Shown: piece by piece, positions 41,578 to 61,900 of the stretch
Position numbering within the stretch: position 1 is the stretch's first letter
Layout of the letters: every line of letters begins with the position of its first letter
DNA from: Dehalogenimonas sp. WBC-2
GTDB taxonomy: Bacteria; Chloroflexota; Dehalococcoidia; Dehalococcoidales; Dehalococcoidaceae
Length of the DNA: 64,000 nt
Assembly: GCA_001005265.1 (NCBI GenBank)
Contig: CP011392.1
Location: forward strand, 372,001 to 436,000
Reading direction: 5' to 3'
Position numbers and translations under genes: made by a program
Notes under the pieces: model-generated
Told to the model about the DNA's origin: nothing
Databases searched by the model: none
Seen by the model: the letters and a program-made list of their open reading frames with translations, nothing else

Positions 41578-41659
41578 AAAACCGGCGGAGTTTATTTACT
41601 GGTTGAAGTGGTTGTCACGCTACGGCTTAGCTGTTATTATGGGGGCACAATTTAATATA

Positions 41660-41749
41660 GTTACTGGGGGAGCTGAAAAGCTGAGAGTTTCGGACAGGCC
41701 GGACGACCCTTGGAACCTGGTCTCGATAATGCGAGCGTAGGGAAGTAGC
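41660..41749 (+). promoter_or_regulatory. TPP riboswitch
   Basis: A complete THI element: P1 arms GTTACT and AGTAGC, GGGGGAGC, CTGAGAG, GACCCTTGGAACCTG, and the pyrophosphate-sensing GCGTAGGGAAG. It controls the genes from 41853 by attenuation, judging from the terminator 12 bases downstream. Confidence 0.95.
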
Positions 41750-41760
41750 AGAACCTTAGA

Positions 41761-51633: not shown

Positions 51634-52488
51634 ATGAGTTCCGCAATCTTAAAAGTAAGCTGTCAGGACCGCAAAGGAATCATCGCGGCGGTGGCCGATT
51701 TTATTTCAGTCAACGGCGGCAATATCATTACACTCGATGAGTTCGTTGACCATCCCAGCAACACCTTCTTCATGCGGGTGGAGTGGGATATCAAAGATTT
51801 CAAAGTTGAACGCGGTAATATCGGGGCCGCTATTGATTCACTAGCTGTGACAAATGGTTTTGGTGGGAATTGGGAGATCTTCTATTCCGACCGCCTGCCA
51901 AAAATGGCGATTATGGTCTCCCGGTTTGACCACTGCCTGTGGGATTTATTACTCAGATATAAGGCGGGAGAAATCCGATGTGAAATCCCGGTGATAATCA
52001 GCAACCATGAAGATCTGAGATATATCGCCGAACTTTTTGGTATCGACTATCAAGCCGTGCCGAAATGGCCGGGGAATAAAGAAACAGCGGAACAACTGGA
52101 GCTTGAAATCCTTGAAAGTTGCGGGGCGGATTTTGTGGTCATGGCGCGGTATATGCAGGTATTGAGTCCGGACTTCCTTGGCCGCTTTAAAAACAGAGTT
52201 ATCAACATTCATCACTCATTTTTACCCGCTTTTGAAGGCGCCAAACCGTACCATCAGGCTTTCGAAAGAGGAGTCAAAGTCATTGGAGCCACAGCGCACT
52301 TTGCCACGGTGGATTTAGACAAAGGGCCAATCATTCACCAGGGAACGCTTCAAATCTCACATCAGGACAGCGTTGATGATCTAATAACAAAAGGCCGGGA
52401 TATCGAGAAGCGGGTGCTGTCAGACGGGGTGAAACTGTTTGTTGCGCGGCGGGTGTTTGTGCATGGGAACCGGACGGTGATTCTTTAA
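51634..52488 (+). CDS. purU: Formyltetrahydrofolate deformylase
   Basis: A protein of 284 residues that hydrolyses 10-formyltetrahydrofolate to formate and tetrahydrofolate. An N-terminal ACT domain (LKVSCQDRKGIIAAVADFI) precedes a formyltransferase-like domain with the catalytic Asn and His in VINIHHSFLPAFEGAKPY and the Asp in TVDLDKGPIIHQ. It is likely co-transcribed with trpS. Confidence 0.95.
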   Translation: MSSAILKVSCQDRKGIIAAVADFISVNGGNIITLDEFVDHPSNTFFMRVEWDIKDFKVERGNIGAAIDSLAVTNGFGGNWEIFYSDRLPKMAIMVSRFDHCLWDLLLRYKAGEIRCEIPVIISNHEDLRYIAELFGIDYQAVPKWPGNKETAEQLELEILESCGADFVVMARYMQVLSPDFLGRFKNRVINIHHSFLPAFEGAKPYHQAFERGVKVIGATAHFATVDLDKGPIIHQGTLQISHQDSVDDLITKGRDIEKRVLSDGVKLFVARRVFVHGNRTVIL

Positions 52489-56120: not shown

Positions 56121-56627
56121 TTAGGCGAAACGTTCAAACCTCTCTTTTGGGGCCTTGCAGATAGGACAGATATCCGGCGGTTCAGACCGGGCGCAGAGGT
56201 AGCCGCAGACCTTGCAGCGCCACACCGGTTGGGAAAATTGAATGGTGACCCCGCTCACCGGGGCTTTTTCCTTGGGTTCTGGCATTTCCTGGCCTCTTCT
56301 TTCCGGCACCGGTTGCAGTTTTTCTTTGCCTTGGAGTATCGGTGTGTTGACGTAAAGACTGCAGAAACAGGCACCGTATTGGCTTATATCCGGGTCGCGA
56401 TAGTCACAAGGGCAGATGATGTCCAGGTCTTCGGCTTTTACGCCGGAGGCCAGACGGCACGGGCAGGCCTGGTAGCCGTACCGGCCGGTATTGACCAAGA
56501 GCCCCTCGACCAGCGATTTAGTGAATTCCATATCCGGATTCAGATGATAACCGCCGTTCTCAGCCTCGGTGTTTAGCTTCTGATAATGTTTTTCTATTGT
56601 CTGAGGATCAGGTTTGGGGTCTTTCAC
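56121..56627 (-). CDS. Ferredoxin-thioredoxin reductase catalytic chain fused to a rubredoxin-like domain
   Basis: A protein of 168 residues. Residues 20-100 match the FTR catalytic subunit, with its CPCR, CPCDY and CFC cysteine pairs that hold a 4Fe-4S cluster and the redox disulfide. Residues 130-168 form a rubredoxin-type iron site ([24 protein letters not shown]). Such fusions let electrons enter by way of the rubredoxin. Its ATG overlaps the glutaredoxin stop by four bases, so the glutaredoxin is the likely substrate. Confidence 0.9.
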
Positions 56628-56902
56628 TTGAGAGCCTTTCGAATCTCATCTTCCTTGAAACCAACGATGTATTTCTCGCCGTTGATGACCATGGTCGGGA
56701 AGGAAGAAGCCGGGTTCCATTTTTTCAGTTCCTTGACAACTGCTTCCCGTTGGGCACCTTCTAAAAGGTCAACATACTCGTAGGTGTACTCCACACCCAG
56801 TTCATCAAGCAGTTTCTTAGTTTTGCCGCACCAGACACAGGTGGAAAGGGCAAACAGCATGACGTCGCCTTTATGGCTGCCTTCAACTTTGATACGTGTC
56901 AT
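56624..56902 (-). CDS. Glutaredoxin-family protein
   Basis: A protein of 92 residues with redox motif CVWCGK (C-V-W-C) at residues 22-25 and a [13 protein letters not shown] segment with the usual fold. The ATG at 56902 with GGGAGAG upstream is preferred over the GTG at 56917. It is coupled to the FTR-rubredoxin gene, forming a thiol redox pair. Confidence 0.88.
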
Positions 56903-57028
56903 TTCACTCTCTCCCACTTCATAGTCATATATTCAATTGTGGGCTATCAACCGAGTTGTGTCAAAACCTTGCCGCGGCTAATAAATATGTTGACAGCCTC
57001 GCAAATCAATCGTATATTGTAATTAAGC

Positions 57029-57098
57029 TGTCGCGCGACTGGCGGAAGTGGAATGAACCACATGGAGCGCGACCAAAGAAAAGCCGACCGCCTGGGCA
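57029..57098 (+). promoter_or_regulatory. ZTP (pfl) riboswitch
   Basis: The aptamer has the P1 arms GTCGCGC and GCGCGAC (57030-57036 and 57067-57073), the conserved CTGGCGGAA, a hairpin GTGG...CCAC, and the late CCGCCTGGGCA whose GCC bases form the pseudoknot with GGCGG. The last element overlaps the terminator that follows, as in known ZTP riboswitches. Binding of ZTP or ZMP should prevent termination and switch on the gene at 57140. Confidence 0.9.
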
Positions 57099-57120
57099 AA
57101 CCGCTCAGGCGGTTTTCTGT
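57087..57120 (+). terminator. Terminator of the ZTP riboswitch
   Basis: The stem CCGCCTG/CAGGCGG with an eleven-base loop is followed by TTTTCTGTTT. It competes with the pseudoknot of the aptamer. Confidence 0.85.
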
Positions 57121-57139
57121 TTATTGGAGGGGCAAGGCT

Positions 57140-57610
57140 ATGTTTTCAAGGGAATGGTTCGTTTATGTTTTCGGGCGATGGATACTTCTGTCAGGAATCG
57201 CCGGGGCGCTGATGCAGGTACTTATCGCTGATAAGCTGGGAGTGCCGACTTTCCCGGCCTTTCTTTTAAACCAACTGATACTGGCTTCGGTATTCTGGTA
57301 TATAGACAAGTATATTTTCCAGCGCCATTTTAGCAGCGTCAAGCAGATTTTCAGGTTCCCGCGTGTCCGCGGTGAGTTCACACCGGCGCATCAGTTCGTT
57401 AAGATCTCCGAGGAGTACTCCGAATTCGCTGAGGCGTACCAGAAGAGTCCTGATGATTATAACAACTGGCTGCACGAGTTCCTTGACCTGTCTCACGCGG
57501 TAGAGATGACCGAGCGGGTGTTACGGGAAAAAGGAGTCGATGTTAATGCTGAATTCTATCACATCATCCAGCAGAACAAGGCCAGGGATCTGTATGACGC
57601 TTCGGCATGA
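57140..57610 (+). CDS. Membrane-anchored MazG-like protein under ZTP control
   Basis: A protein of 156 residues from the ATG at 57140 with TTGGAGGGG upstream. The ATG at 57053 would lie inside the riboswitch. Two membrane helices (FGRWILLSGIAGALMQVLI and AFLLNQLILASVFWYI) precede a cytoplasmic helical domain with a MazG-like acidic pattern: SEEYSEFAEAYQ and then HEFLDLSHAVEM (E-E-x2-E and E-x2-D). MazG proteins hydrolyse nucleoside triphosphates. With ZTP control, removal of ZTP or related nucleotides is an attractive guess, but it is not shown. Confidence 0.65.
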   Translation: MFSREWFVYVFGRWILLSGIAGALMQVLIADKLGVPTFPAFLLNQLILASVFWYIDKYIFQRHFSSVKQIFRFPRVRGEFTPAHQFVKISEEYSEFAEAYQKSPDDYNNWLHEFLDLSHAVEMTERVLREKGVDVNAEFYHIIQQNKARDLYDASA

Positions 57611-57644: not shown

Positions 57645-58361
57645 TTACACTCCCAGCAGTTGATCCAGACCAGCGGCACCGCTCTTGCCGGGGTATTTCT
57701 TGAGGCGGGTTAAGGCCTTTTTAGTGTCGGAAGCGACGCGGGCTTTGTCAGTGTGGTTTAGGCGGTATTTGAAAAGCCAGTAGGTGAATTCACGGAACTC
57801 TGACAGTTTCAATGAGCGGCTGGCGCGTTCAGAGCGGTCATGGCGGAAGAGTTTCAAGAGTTCAGCCCGCGGCTGGTCATAGACGCGCAGAAAGCTCTCA
57901 TCAATGGTATCGTAGCCTTTGATAACCAGTGAACGTTCCTCTTTTCTGACTTCGTCCTGGACAGCCAGAATGAGGGCTTCCTCCACGGTAATACCGTAGA
58001 AATAATTCAAGTGCTGCTGGTAGCGGGTATCACCCATCAGGCGCCGCATTTCCTCGGTGGTGACGTCGATGGGCGGGATAGAGTTGAAAAGGAGGGCGAC
58101 GCGTTCCTTCTCAGGTACAAGCTCCGGCAGAGCGCCGGTCAACCGTTCGGCGATGAGCAGGAAATCAAAGGCCTCTCCGGTGATGAGATAACGCTGGATG
58201 CGGCCATCGATACATTCTTCATCCTCAGTCCACAGACTGATAGCCTCCAGGAGCGCCAGGTACCAGTGACGGCCTTGTTCGATAACCTCACGCATCCGGT
58301 TGATGGCGGCGTTTGAGCTTTCGCTGAGGCCGGTGGTTGAGCGGCAAGATTCTGAGGTCAT
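57645..58361 (-). CDS. Conserved-looking protein in the MNT-HepT operon, unknown function
   Basis: A protein of 238 residues, mostly helical ([40 protein letters not shown]). Its ATG overlaps the hepT stop by four bases, so it is translated from the toxin-antitoxin transcript. No family is recognised and no membrane segment or catalytic motif is seen. Confidence 0.7.
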
Positions 58362-58696
58362 AGGCTGTTTCTGATGGTCATCAAATTTGATTTCAATATG
58401 GGAAGACTGTTTTTAACAGTTTGCCAGGTCAGGCCAAGGTTAACTCCGAAATATTCATGTATCAGTATGTCCCTCATTCCCGCGATCCCCCGCCACGGCA
58501 CATCAGGATATTGTTTCCTAAACTCAGCCGGTACGTGTTTGGCAGCCTCTCCGATTATTTCTAGGCGGCGCATTACGGCATCCTGGATTTGAGACGACCT
58601 TGTGAAATCATCCACGGCAAGATTATGAGTATAGGCTTCGATCAGATTGATGCTGTCGGGGATATGTTCCAGAAATACGCCCGTGTCTTTGCTCAA
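58358..58696 (-). CDS. hepT: HepT-like toxin
   Basis: A protein of 112 residues of the HepT/DUF86 family, a HEPN RNase. The catalytic R-x4-6-H motif is present as [10 protein letters not shown] at residues 75-84. In the best-studied pairs, the MNT partner silences HepT by adding AMP to the Tyr of the H-x-Y motif (HEY here). The gene overlaps mntA by four bases. Confidence 0.9.
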
Positions 58697-58983
58697 AATA
58701 TTCTCATTTCCTCGGAGAGCACCTTATCCCGGATCAGGGGATTGAGAGACCTATAGGTTACAACATTCACTTTGCGGTGTACCTTTTCTTCAAGGTCAAT
58801 CTTGAGTGATACAAGGTCCAGAAGATTTTTTTCACCCTGGAACTCTACCAGTATATCCAGATCGCTGGTTTCAGTTGCGGTGCCGGTGGCCACCGAACCG
58901 AAAACAGCTGCACGGGCGACGTTATGCTGTTTTAGAACGGGCAAAAGTCTTGATTTCAAGTCCTTGACGGTTAAGGTTCTCAT
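58693..58983 (-). CDS. mntA: MNT-domain nucleotidyltransferase antitoxin
   Basis: A protein of 96 residues with the minimal nucleotidyltransferase motif [20 protein letters not shown] at residues 29-48 (GSx...DxD). The ATG at 58983 lies one base after the secA stop. It is the antitoxin and AMP-transferring partner of HepT. Confidence 0.9.
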
Positions 58984-58984
58984 C

Positions 58985-61900
58985 TTAGGTCCCGCAACAT
59001 TTCTTGTGTTTTTTACCCGAGCCGCAGGGACAGGGATCGTTGCGGCCGACTTTATGACCCTCCGCGTCCTTGGCGGCGTGGCTGACATTTGCAGGAGCGG
59101 CCACTGCCTGCATTGGTGAAGAAGCGGCTTTGGCAGCAACAGGTACGGGAGCGGCGGCAACTGCCAGCGGCGCTTGCCGGGCCTGAATTCGCTGTGGTGC
59201 GGCGGCGCCGGGTGATTGTTTGACCACCTGAACCTTGAAAACGGCGTGGACAACATCATGCTTGATGCCATCGAGGAGCTCCTGGAAGGCGCGGAAGCCC
59301 TCGTTCTTGTAGGCATCAACGGCTTTGACCTGCCGCAGTGTCTGCCAGCCTGCTTCCAGGCGCAGGTGCTCGACGAAGGTCAGATGCTCAATCCATAGTG
59401 TGTCCATGACGCGGAGCATCAAATGGCGTTCAATCTGGCGCATGACCGGGGCGGTAATCTCCTGTTCCTTTTGGTCGTACAGGGCTTCAGCGGCGGTTTT
59501 CAGGTGTTCGCCGACCTCCTCCGAAGACAGGCGGGAGATGTGTTCGGCGGTGAAATCAGCGGGCTGGGGCATAAAGGCACCAAGATCAGTCAGCAGGCCG
59601 TCAATGTCCCAGTCCTGATAGTCCAGGCCGGACAAGCGCTCGGAGATGATGCTGTCGATAGTCTCATGGATCATGTTGATGATATTTGATTTCAGGTCGG
59701 CACCGGACAGTATCTTCTTACGCTCGCCGTAGATGATCTCACGGTGCTTGTTGACCACGTCATCATACTCGACCAGATTCTTGCGGATGTCGAAGTTGTA
59801 GCCTTCTACACGTTTCTGGGCGTTCTCTATTGATTTGGAAATAAGGGAGTTCTCTATCGGGGTGTTCTCGTCGAAACCGAAGCGATCCATGAGGCCGCGC
59901 ACCATCTCACCGCCGAAACGGCGCATGATGTCATCTTCCAGCGACACGAAGAAGCGCGACGAGCCAGGGTCTCCCTGTCGTCCGGAGCGACCTCGAAGCT
60001 GGTTGTCGATGCGGCGGGCTTCATGGCGCTCAGTGCCGATGACGTGCAGGCCGCCAGCCTTGACCACGGTAACATAGTTTTGGAGCCAAGCGTTGAAGCG
60101 TTTGCGCTCCTTATCAATGACCTGCTGGCAACGGCCGGTATCGATGCGGCATTCAAGTTTTTTGGGGCTTTCGGGCAACTGTTTTGAAATATCGGATACC
60201 CAGCCAGCATAGGCAGCCAGATAATGCTGCCCCTGCGCCTTGAGTTCTTTTTCCAGCTTTTCGATCTCGGTCAGGACGTTGTCAGGGTCGCTGGCAGCGG
60301 TTTCCGACCAGGCGTCAGGGTTGTCCTTGATCTGCTGGATGTATTCCAGGCGCAGAGTGTTGATACGTCCCTGGAGACGGACGATCTCGGCTTCTTCACG
60401 GGCGACGCCTTTTTCAAATTCGGATAAGCTGTCACGGTCAACCGGAGCGGCGGTCAGTTCTGACGACAGATGCTCTTTAAGATCGCCAAGCGGCTCGTAA
60501 CCTTCCAGCCTACCGCCGAGGATGATGTCGACGCCGCGGCCAGCCATGTTGGTGGCCACAGTGACGGCACCGGGTTTGCCGGCTTCGGCGACGATGGCGG
60601 CTTCACGTTCATGCTTTTTGGCATTGAGTACCTCGTGGGCGATGCCTTTCCTTTTCAGCATATCGGAGATGACGTCAGAGTTCTCAATGGACACCGTGCC
60701 CAGGAGCACCGGACGGCCGAGGGCGCGCATCTCCTCCACTTCACGGATGACAGCCTTAAATTTGGACGAAATATCCTTGTAAATATGATCGCCCTGATCC
60801 TGACGAACATTGGGACGGTTCGTGGGTACAGCAATCACTTCCAGCTTGTAGATACGGGCGAACTCCTCAGCTTCGGTCAGGGCGGTGCCGGTCATGCCGG
60901 ACAGTTTGTCATACATGCGGAAGTAGTTCTGGATGGTGATGGAGGCGATAGTCGCGGTTTTCTCCTGGACTTTCAACTTTCCCGAAAGGGATTCTTTTGC
61001 TTCGATTGCCTGATGTAGTCCTTCAGAATATCGCCTGCCTAGAAGTTTCCGACCGGTGAATGTGTCAACAATTACTACCTCACCGTTTTCAATAACATAG
61101 TCCCGATTAATATTGTAGATTTCTTTTGCACGAAGTGCATTTCTAAATTCATGTTCTATTATTTGCTCAACGGATTTGCCTTCTAAGGGGTCCTTCTTTT
61201 TTTCATTTCCGGCTTTTTTAGAATACCATTCCTTTAGAGAGAAAATTTCCTTCTCAACTTTTTCATAACCCTCTTCATTAAGGATTACATCGCGTTCTTT
61301 TTCTTTGATTTCATAACCGTGGCTATTGAACGATTTCGCTATTCTCGCGACTTGCTTGTAAACATCTTCACCAACATCTTTGAGTTCTTCGAGAAGACCT
61401 TGAGTGAGTTTATTCACATATTCGTAAGGGGCACTAATGATGAGGGGGGTGCGCGCCTCATCAATGAGGAGATTGTCCACCTCATCCACGATAGCGAAAT
61501 ACGGTCCGCCGGGGCGCTGACTGGCCTTTTCCAGGTCCATCACCATGTTGTCGCGGAGGTAATCAAAACCGAACTCGGCAGAGGTACCGTAGGTGATGTC
61601 AGCAGCATAGGCCTCTTTGCGGGACACCGGCCGGTAGTGCTTCCATGGGTCATTGTCCTTGCCGGAATCGTAAGTTGGATCGTACAAACGCGACGGCTGG
61701 TACTCGTCCGGAGTCTGCATGGGATAGATGGAAGCGACGGTGACGCCGAGGGCGTGATATACCGGTCCCATCCAGTAGGCGTCGCGGCGGGCGAGATAAT
61801 CATTCTGAGTAACCAGGTGAGCACCCTGGCCAAGGAGCGAATTGAGGTAGAGAGTCAGAGTGGCCACCAGCGTCTTGCCTTCACCGGTCTTCATTTCAGC

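Follow-up and report, generated by a model that had tools for sequence, protein, structure and literature searches.

A conserved ZTP riboswitch precedes the gene for a membrane-anchored MazG-like protein

ZTP riboswitches normally act on genes of folate and purine metabolism. The locus studied here raises the question of what such a switch would do in front of a gene for a membrane protein. It lies in a window of 64,000 nucleotides (the whole stretch of DNA that we analyzed), and an earlier note had read it as a ZTP riboswitch controlling a membrane-bound MazG-like protein, a possible nucleotide pyrophosphohydrolase that could remove ZTP itself. When a riboswitch target has no known function, it is a good lead to missing biochemistry. 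In this case the expected ligand is a folate-stress alarmone, the target is the sole one in its genome, and the arrangement is found in all eight genomes of the genus, so that a substrate or role is directly testable. The features of the transcription unit are as follows.

56990 to 57018, + strand: sigma-70 type promoter, TTGACA-17-TATATT, near-consensus (11 of 12 matches in a consensus scan)
57025 to 57104, + strand: ZMP/ZTP (pfl) riboswitch aptamer, RF01750 (62 bits against a gathering score of 39)
57086 to 57124, + strand: intrinsic terminator from a terminator scan (12-pair stem at 57086 to 57114 plus a T-rich tail)
57126 to 57132, + strand: ribosome-binding site GGAGGGG, read from the sequence
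57140 to 57610, + strand: gene for the membrane-anchored MazG-like protein, 156 amino acids (ATG at 57140; monocistronic)

The covariance search against Rfam that the earlier note had proposed returned a match above the gathering score and spanning the full model (positions 1 to 86). The aptamer and terminator do stand directly before the gene, as had been claimed, with the 12-pair terminator overlapping the aptamer and the ATG following. The aptamer's 3' strand (the P3/pseudoknot strand) doubles as the 5' arm of the terminator, an overlap present in all eight genus genomes; consequently, the two structures should be mutually exclusive, as in an ON switch. Both the ligand, ZMP or ZTP, and the ON direction of this leader would be those expected from the riboswitch class. 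An alternative start at 57053, listed by the open reading frame tool, falls within the aptamer and is not likely to be the true start of the gene. The genes flanking 57140 to 57610 lie on the opposite strand and, because this holds for the downstream gene wherever it was read, the MazG-like gene is the unambiguous target, in a one-gene unit.

Several neighbors in the window are of separate interest. Divergent from the ZTP unit, at 56121 to 56917, are a ferredoxin-thioredoxin reductase beta chain fused to a rubredoxin-like domain and a glutaredoxin gene. About 5 kb upstream of the unit is purU (51634 to 52488, above the equivalog cut-off), encoding formyltetrahydrofolate deformylase, an enzyme that lowers 10-formyl-tetrahydrofolate. 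A TPP riboswitch (41656 to 41760, 65 bits) is followed in an ordinary arrangement by AIR-synthase-like and thiE-like genes. At 58358 to 59319, a HepT-like RNase adjoins a nucleotidyltransferase-like frame that overlaps the end of secA, possibly a HEPN/MNT toxin-antitoxin pair.

The aptamer, the terminator and the orthologous gene occur as a unit in all eight genomes of what is probably the genus Dehalogenimonas (its sister genus would be Dehalococcoides), with one ZTP riboswitch per genome. In the host genome (1.73 Mb, one contig, complete) that single riboswitch is the one at 57025 to 57104. Across the eight leaders, P1 carries compensatory changes at three pairs and the terminator stem keeps 12 invariant pairs; 99% of cells in the leader alignment are paired, against 31 to 46% in slid controls. 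Of the other seven genomes, most also show hexamers resembling TTGACA in their leaders. The gene is under strong purifying selection (dN/dS of about 0.01 to 0.06 where measurable), and its synonymous sites are near saturation between most genus pairs. That the unit has been kept in every genome despite this divergence shows its conservation to be selective and excludes chance. The claim of ZTP-riboswitch control is thus well supported by the aptamer, its coupled terminator and the gene in all eight genomes, and we consider regulation of the MazG-like gene at 57140 to 57610 by this riboswitch very likely.

The earlier note had also called this target unusual, and a survey of the class bears it out. 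ZTP riboswitches occur in 31 of 245 class genomes, and at the 22 loci outside the genus that were readable downstream they precede purH (19 loci) or glyA (3 loci), as judged by Pfam for five of the downstream genes and by eye for the others. The targets usually described are purH, fhs, pfl, glyA, folD and other purine or tetrahydrofolate genes (Weinberg et al., PMC2864571). A literature search found no coupling of a ZTP riboswitch to MazG, with a listing in Kim et al. 2015 possible, and where riboswitches come up in a Dehalogenimonas genomics paper, the only one named is a Moco riboswitch. We rejected the idea that the odd target reflects a loss of PurH, since PurH is present in all eight genus members, where it is without a ZTP riboswitch. 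The riboswitch itself belongs to a known class; the target is what is unusual. Because the only ZTP sensor RNA of the genome, in eight of eight genomes, controls the gene of an unstudied membrane protein, the folate-stress response would seem to have a part that is not yet known.

What the protein might do has to be read from its parts, which are listed below.

57149 to 57352, + strand: two-helix membrane hairpin, helices at residues 4 to 33 and 38 to 71 (conservation, AF2 model, hydropathy)
57365 to 57607, + strand: soluble three-helix MazG-like domain, residues 76 to 156 (AF2 pLDDT 91 when modelled alone; Foldseek, VIA)
57410 to 57424, + strand: E91-E92-x2-E95 motif (E91 and E92 invariant; E95 replaced by Q in many relatives)
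57476 to 57487, + strand: E113-x2-D116 motif (D116 invariant; E113 in this genus only)

The two membrane helices that had been proposed lie between residues 1 and 71, where hydropathy peaks at residues 6 to 17 and 33 to 37, and the full-length AF2 model (pLDDT 71) has two long N-terminal helices followed by a three-helix C-terminal part. For that C-terminal part, the MazG likeness comes from structure comparison. With residues 76 to 156 as the query, the top eight Foldseek matches all belong to the MazG superfamily (iMazG, DCTPP1, Bacillus MazG and the AF1178 pyrophosphatase; probability 0.82 to 1.00, E values of 0.15 or worse). VIA gave MazG and HisE chains prominently, at Z scores up to 8.3, which is low for helical bundles. 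Helical folds readily give middling Z scores, which makes the Foldseek and VIA evidence good, not final.

Sequence comparison went less far. The 156-residue protein has no Pfam or NCBIfam match above any cut-off, and sequence profiles gave only sub-threshold MazG and HisE matches; MazG-like families in PHROGs were matched by 8 and 3 of the 28 family members, again below threshold. In hhalign the family scored 19.8 against MazG, only slightly higher than shuffled controls (at most 16.2), with E-E-x2-E in register. A phage family of unknown function, phrog_5164, was matched by 13 of the 28 soluble domains with a best E value of 6.6e-4, better than the annotated MazG families. A defence-system reading was dropped after PADLOC gave no convincing match.

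These data also bear on the possibility that residues 76 to 156 are an ordinary three-helix hairpin whose likeness to MazG, motif included, is a matter of chance, the membrane protein having some unrelated function under ZTP control. The lack of a significant sequence match, a HisE profile comparison in hhalign that did not rise above shuffled controls, and VIA Z scores of 7 to 8 for unrelated helical bundles would all fit such a protein. They are set against top eight Foldseek matches that agree on one superfamily, a motif whose register agrees with MazG in hhalign, and the invariance of E91, E92 and D116, and we regard a chance likeness as improbable. The MazG-like domain of the earlier note is supported at the level of the fold and finds no match among curated sequence models; on the predicted structure, a MazG fold for residues 76 to 156 is likely.

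The acidic motif, E-E-x2-E and E-x2-D, is present just as had been described, and E91, E92 and D116 do not vary among 28 sequences. The complete motif is found in seven of the eight genus members (the window protein and 6 of its 7 relatives). One genus member, G006, has Q at position 95, as does one large group of relatives. Outside the genus, residue 113 is Q (sister genus and two further families), H (L024 and L025) or R (the group linked to hisH/hisF), leaving E-x2-D incomplete in every such lineage. The complete metal-binding set therefore coincides with the genus that bears the riboswitch. As this is a single clade, the coincidence amounts to one event at most and carries no statistical proof. 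From these residues, nucleotide hydrolysis is plausible for the genus protein, and it may not be the ancestral role of the family. That the protein is an active pyrophosphohydrolase, as the note had it, is accordingly a possibility, favored by the full acidic motif in 7 of 8 genus members and weakened by the loss of E113 elsewhere and of E95 in many relatives.

The main rival to a hydrolase is a protein with a MazG fold and no catalysis, which would serve the hairpin as a scaffold, sensor or regulator through binding to a partner or a nucleotide, ZTP control having been added in the genus. The membrane hairpin is the best-conserved part of the protein and holds most of the invariant residues, an indication that the anchor is no less important than hydrolysis; moreover, a hairpin-only relative of 57 amino acids (L038) occurs in one MAG, labelled Desulfurellaceae. 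The replacement of E113 by Q, H or R in all lineages outside the genus, and the frequent Q at position 95, would be expected of such a binder. The full acidic set in seven of eight genus members would not, nor would the family-wide invariance of E91, E92 and D116, and we hold this explanation to be a tentative one that deserves to be kept in mind.

Where else the family occurs offers some guidance to its role. Orthologues were found in 13 of 61 relatives, and the family is present in 18 of 245 genomes of the class Dehalococcoidia and 15 of 350 genomes of the phylum; among the genomes searched, L038 is its only member outside the class. The sister genus keeps the gene in genomes of 1.4 to 1.5 Mb, in which an Rfam search found no ZTP riboswitch. 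No other riboswitch precedes the gene in other lineages at the Rfam gathering threshold, and none does so at the Dehalococcoides-like, f9 and f12 loci even at E values up to 1. The gene has Moco riboswitches in its vicinity in L023 and elsewhere; as these are on the opposite strand and more than 1.6 kb distant, they were rejected as its control.

In one family, at f51-type loci (L023, L027 to L031, L034, L035 and L037), hisH and usually hisF come after the MazG-like gene on its strand, both above their equivalog cut-offs as checked on L028, with a membrane protein gene in between at most of them. That membrane protein (L028:5512-6210 and relatives) is conserved and resembles an ECF transporter S component in sub-threshold Pfam matches. 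HisHF releases AICAR, which is ZMP. In G018, 26 bases separate the MazG-like gene from thyX downstream of it. Two genus members have thyX in convergent orientation and G280 has metF in divergent orientation; in the sister genus and L024/L025, no hisH/hisF, thyX or metF neighbor was seen. These links, picked out after the fact and without a chance rate, suggest a role for the family at the AICAR/folate node.

The histidine neighbors raise a more specific alternative, that the protein replaces HisE (phosphoribosyl-ATP pyrophosphohydrolase) in the ZMP-releasing pathway of histidine synthesis. We considered it because canonical HisE is found in none of 61 relatives (Dehalococcoidales) and HisI in 50, and because a MazG-family protein takes the HisE role in Desulfovibrio (PMC5764234). 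In these 61 genomes the HisE step is unfilled, and is perhaps performed by MazG. None of the searched carriers of the MazG-like gene has HisE, another family of the class has the gene in front of hisH/hisF, and the bifunctional HISN2 is among the Foldseek matches. The alternative is weakened because most HisE-less genomes with HisI are without the MazG-like gene. In addition, every carrier outside the genus is without E113, a membrane anchor and ZTP control are ill-suited to a housekeeping histidine enzyme, and the canonical MazG of the genome is a simpler candidate. The PF01503 (PRA-PH) cut-off of 21.3 bits was not reached, the best score being 13.7, in a relative only. We judge a HisE replacement to be very improbable.

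We favor the reading in which the riboswitch induces a membrane protein of the MazG superfamily. A shortage of 10-formyl-tetrahydrofolate would stall PurH, and AICAR (ZMP) and ZTP would accumulate. Binding of ZMP or ZTP by the nascent leader aptamer would hold back the terminator strand, and transcription would continue into the single gene. The product would be a membrane hairpin bearing a MazG-superfamily domain, presumably on the cytosolic side. In the genus, with its full set of metal-binding acids, this domain would most likely hydrolyze, under folate stress, a nucleoside triphosphate with a link to the metabolism of purines, histidine or thymidylate. Against this stands the canonical MazG elsewhere in the genome. 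Taken whole, with catalysis as its most conjectural step, we see this reading as evenly balanced between right and wrong. A reading as the missing dUTPase was rejected, the genome having a dUTPase above the NCBIfam equivalog cut-off. The narrower proposal, in which the tethered protein, itself induced by ZTP, hydrolyzes ZTP or its precursor pool and so switches off the folate-starvation signal by feedback, is unlikely; ZTP as the substrate is speculative, nothing in the sequence singling it out. If the protein does act on ZTP, it would be a dedicated removal route for that signal. The unit adds a one-carbon/purine stress response to what are probably organohalide-respiring bacteria.

Among known systems, HisE (PF01503) shares with this protein the predicted superfamily fold, a sub-threshold match in 3 of 28 relatives and the hisH/hisF neighbor in another family of the class; in contrast to HisE, the protein is membrane anchored, far under the Pfam cut-off and, in most relatives, without the first acid of E-x2-D. 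The all-alpha NTP pyrophosphohydrolases MazG, iMazG and DCTPP1 resemble it in the predicted fold of residues 76 to 156 and in the two acidic motifs of the window protein, and differ in that it has a two-helix membrane anchor, matches no curated model and does not keep E113 and E95 family-wide. The leader is a typical pfl motif (RF01750) in its full aptamer model, overlapping terminator, presumed ON switch and single copy before a gene, whereas its target is an uncharacterized membrane MazG-like protein.
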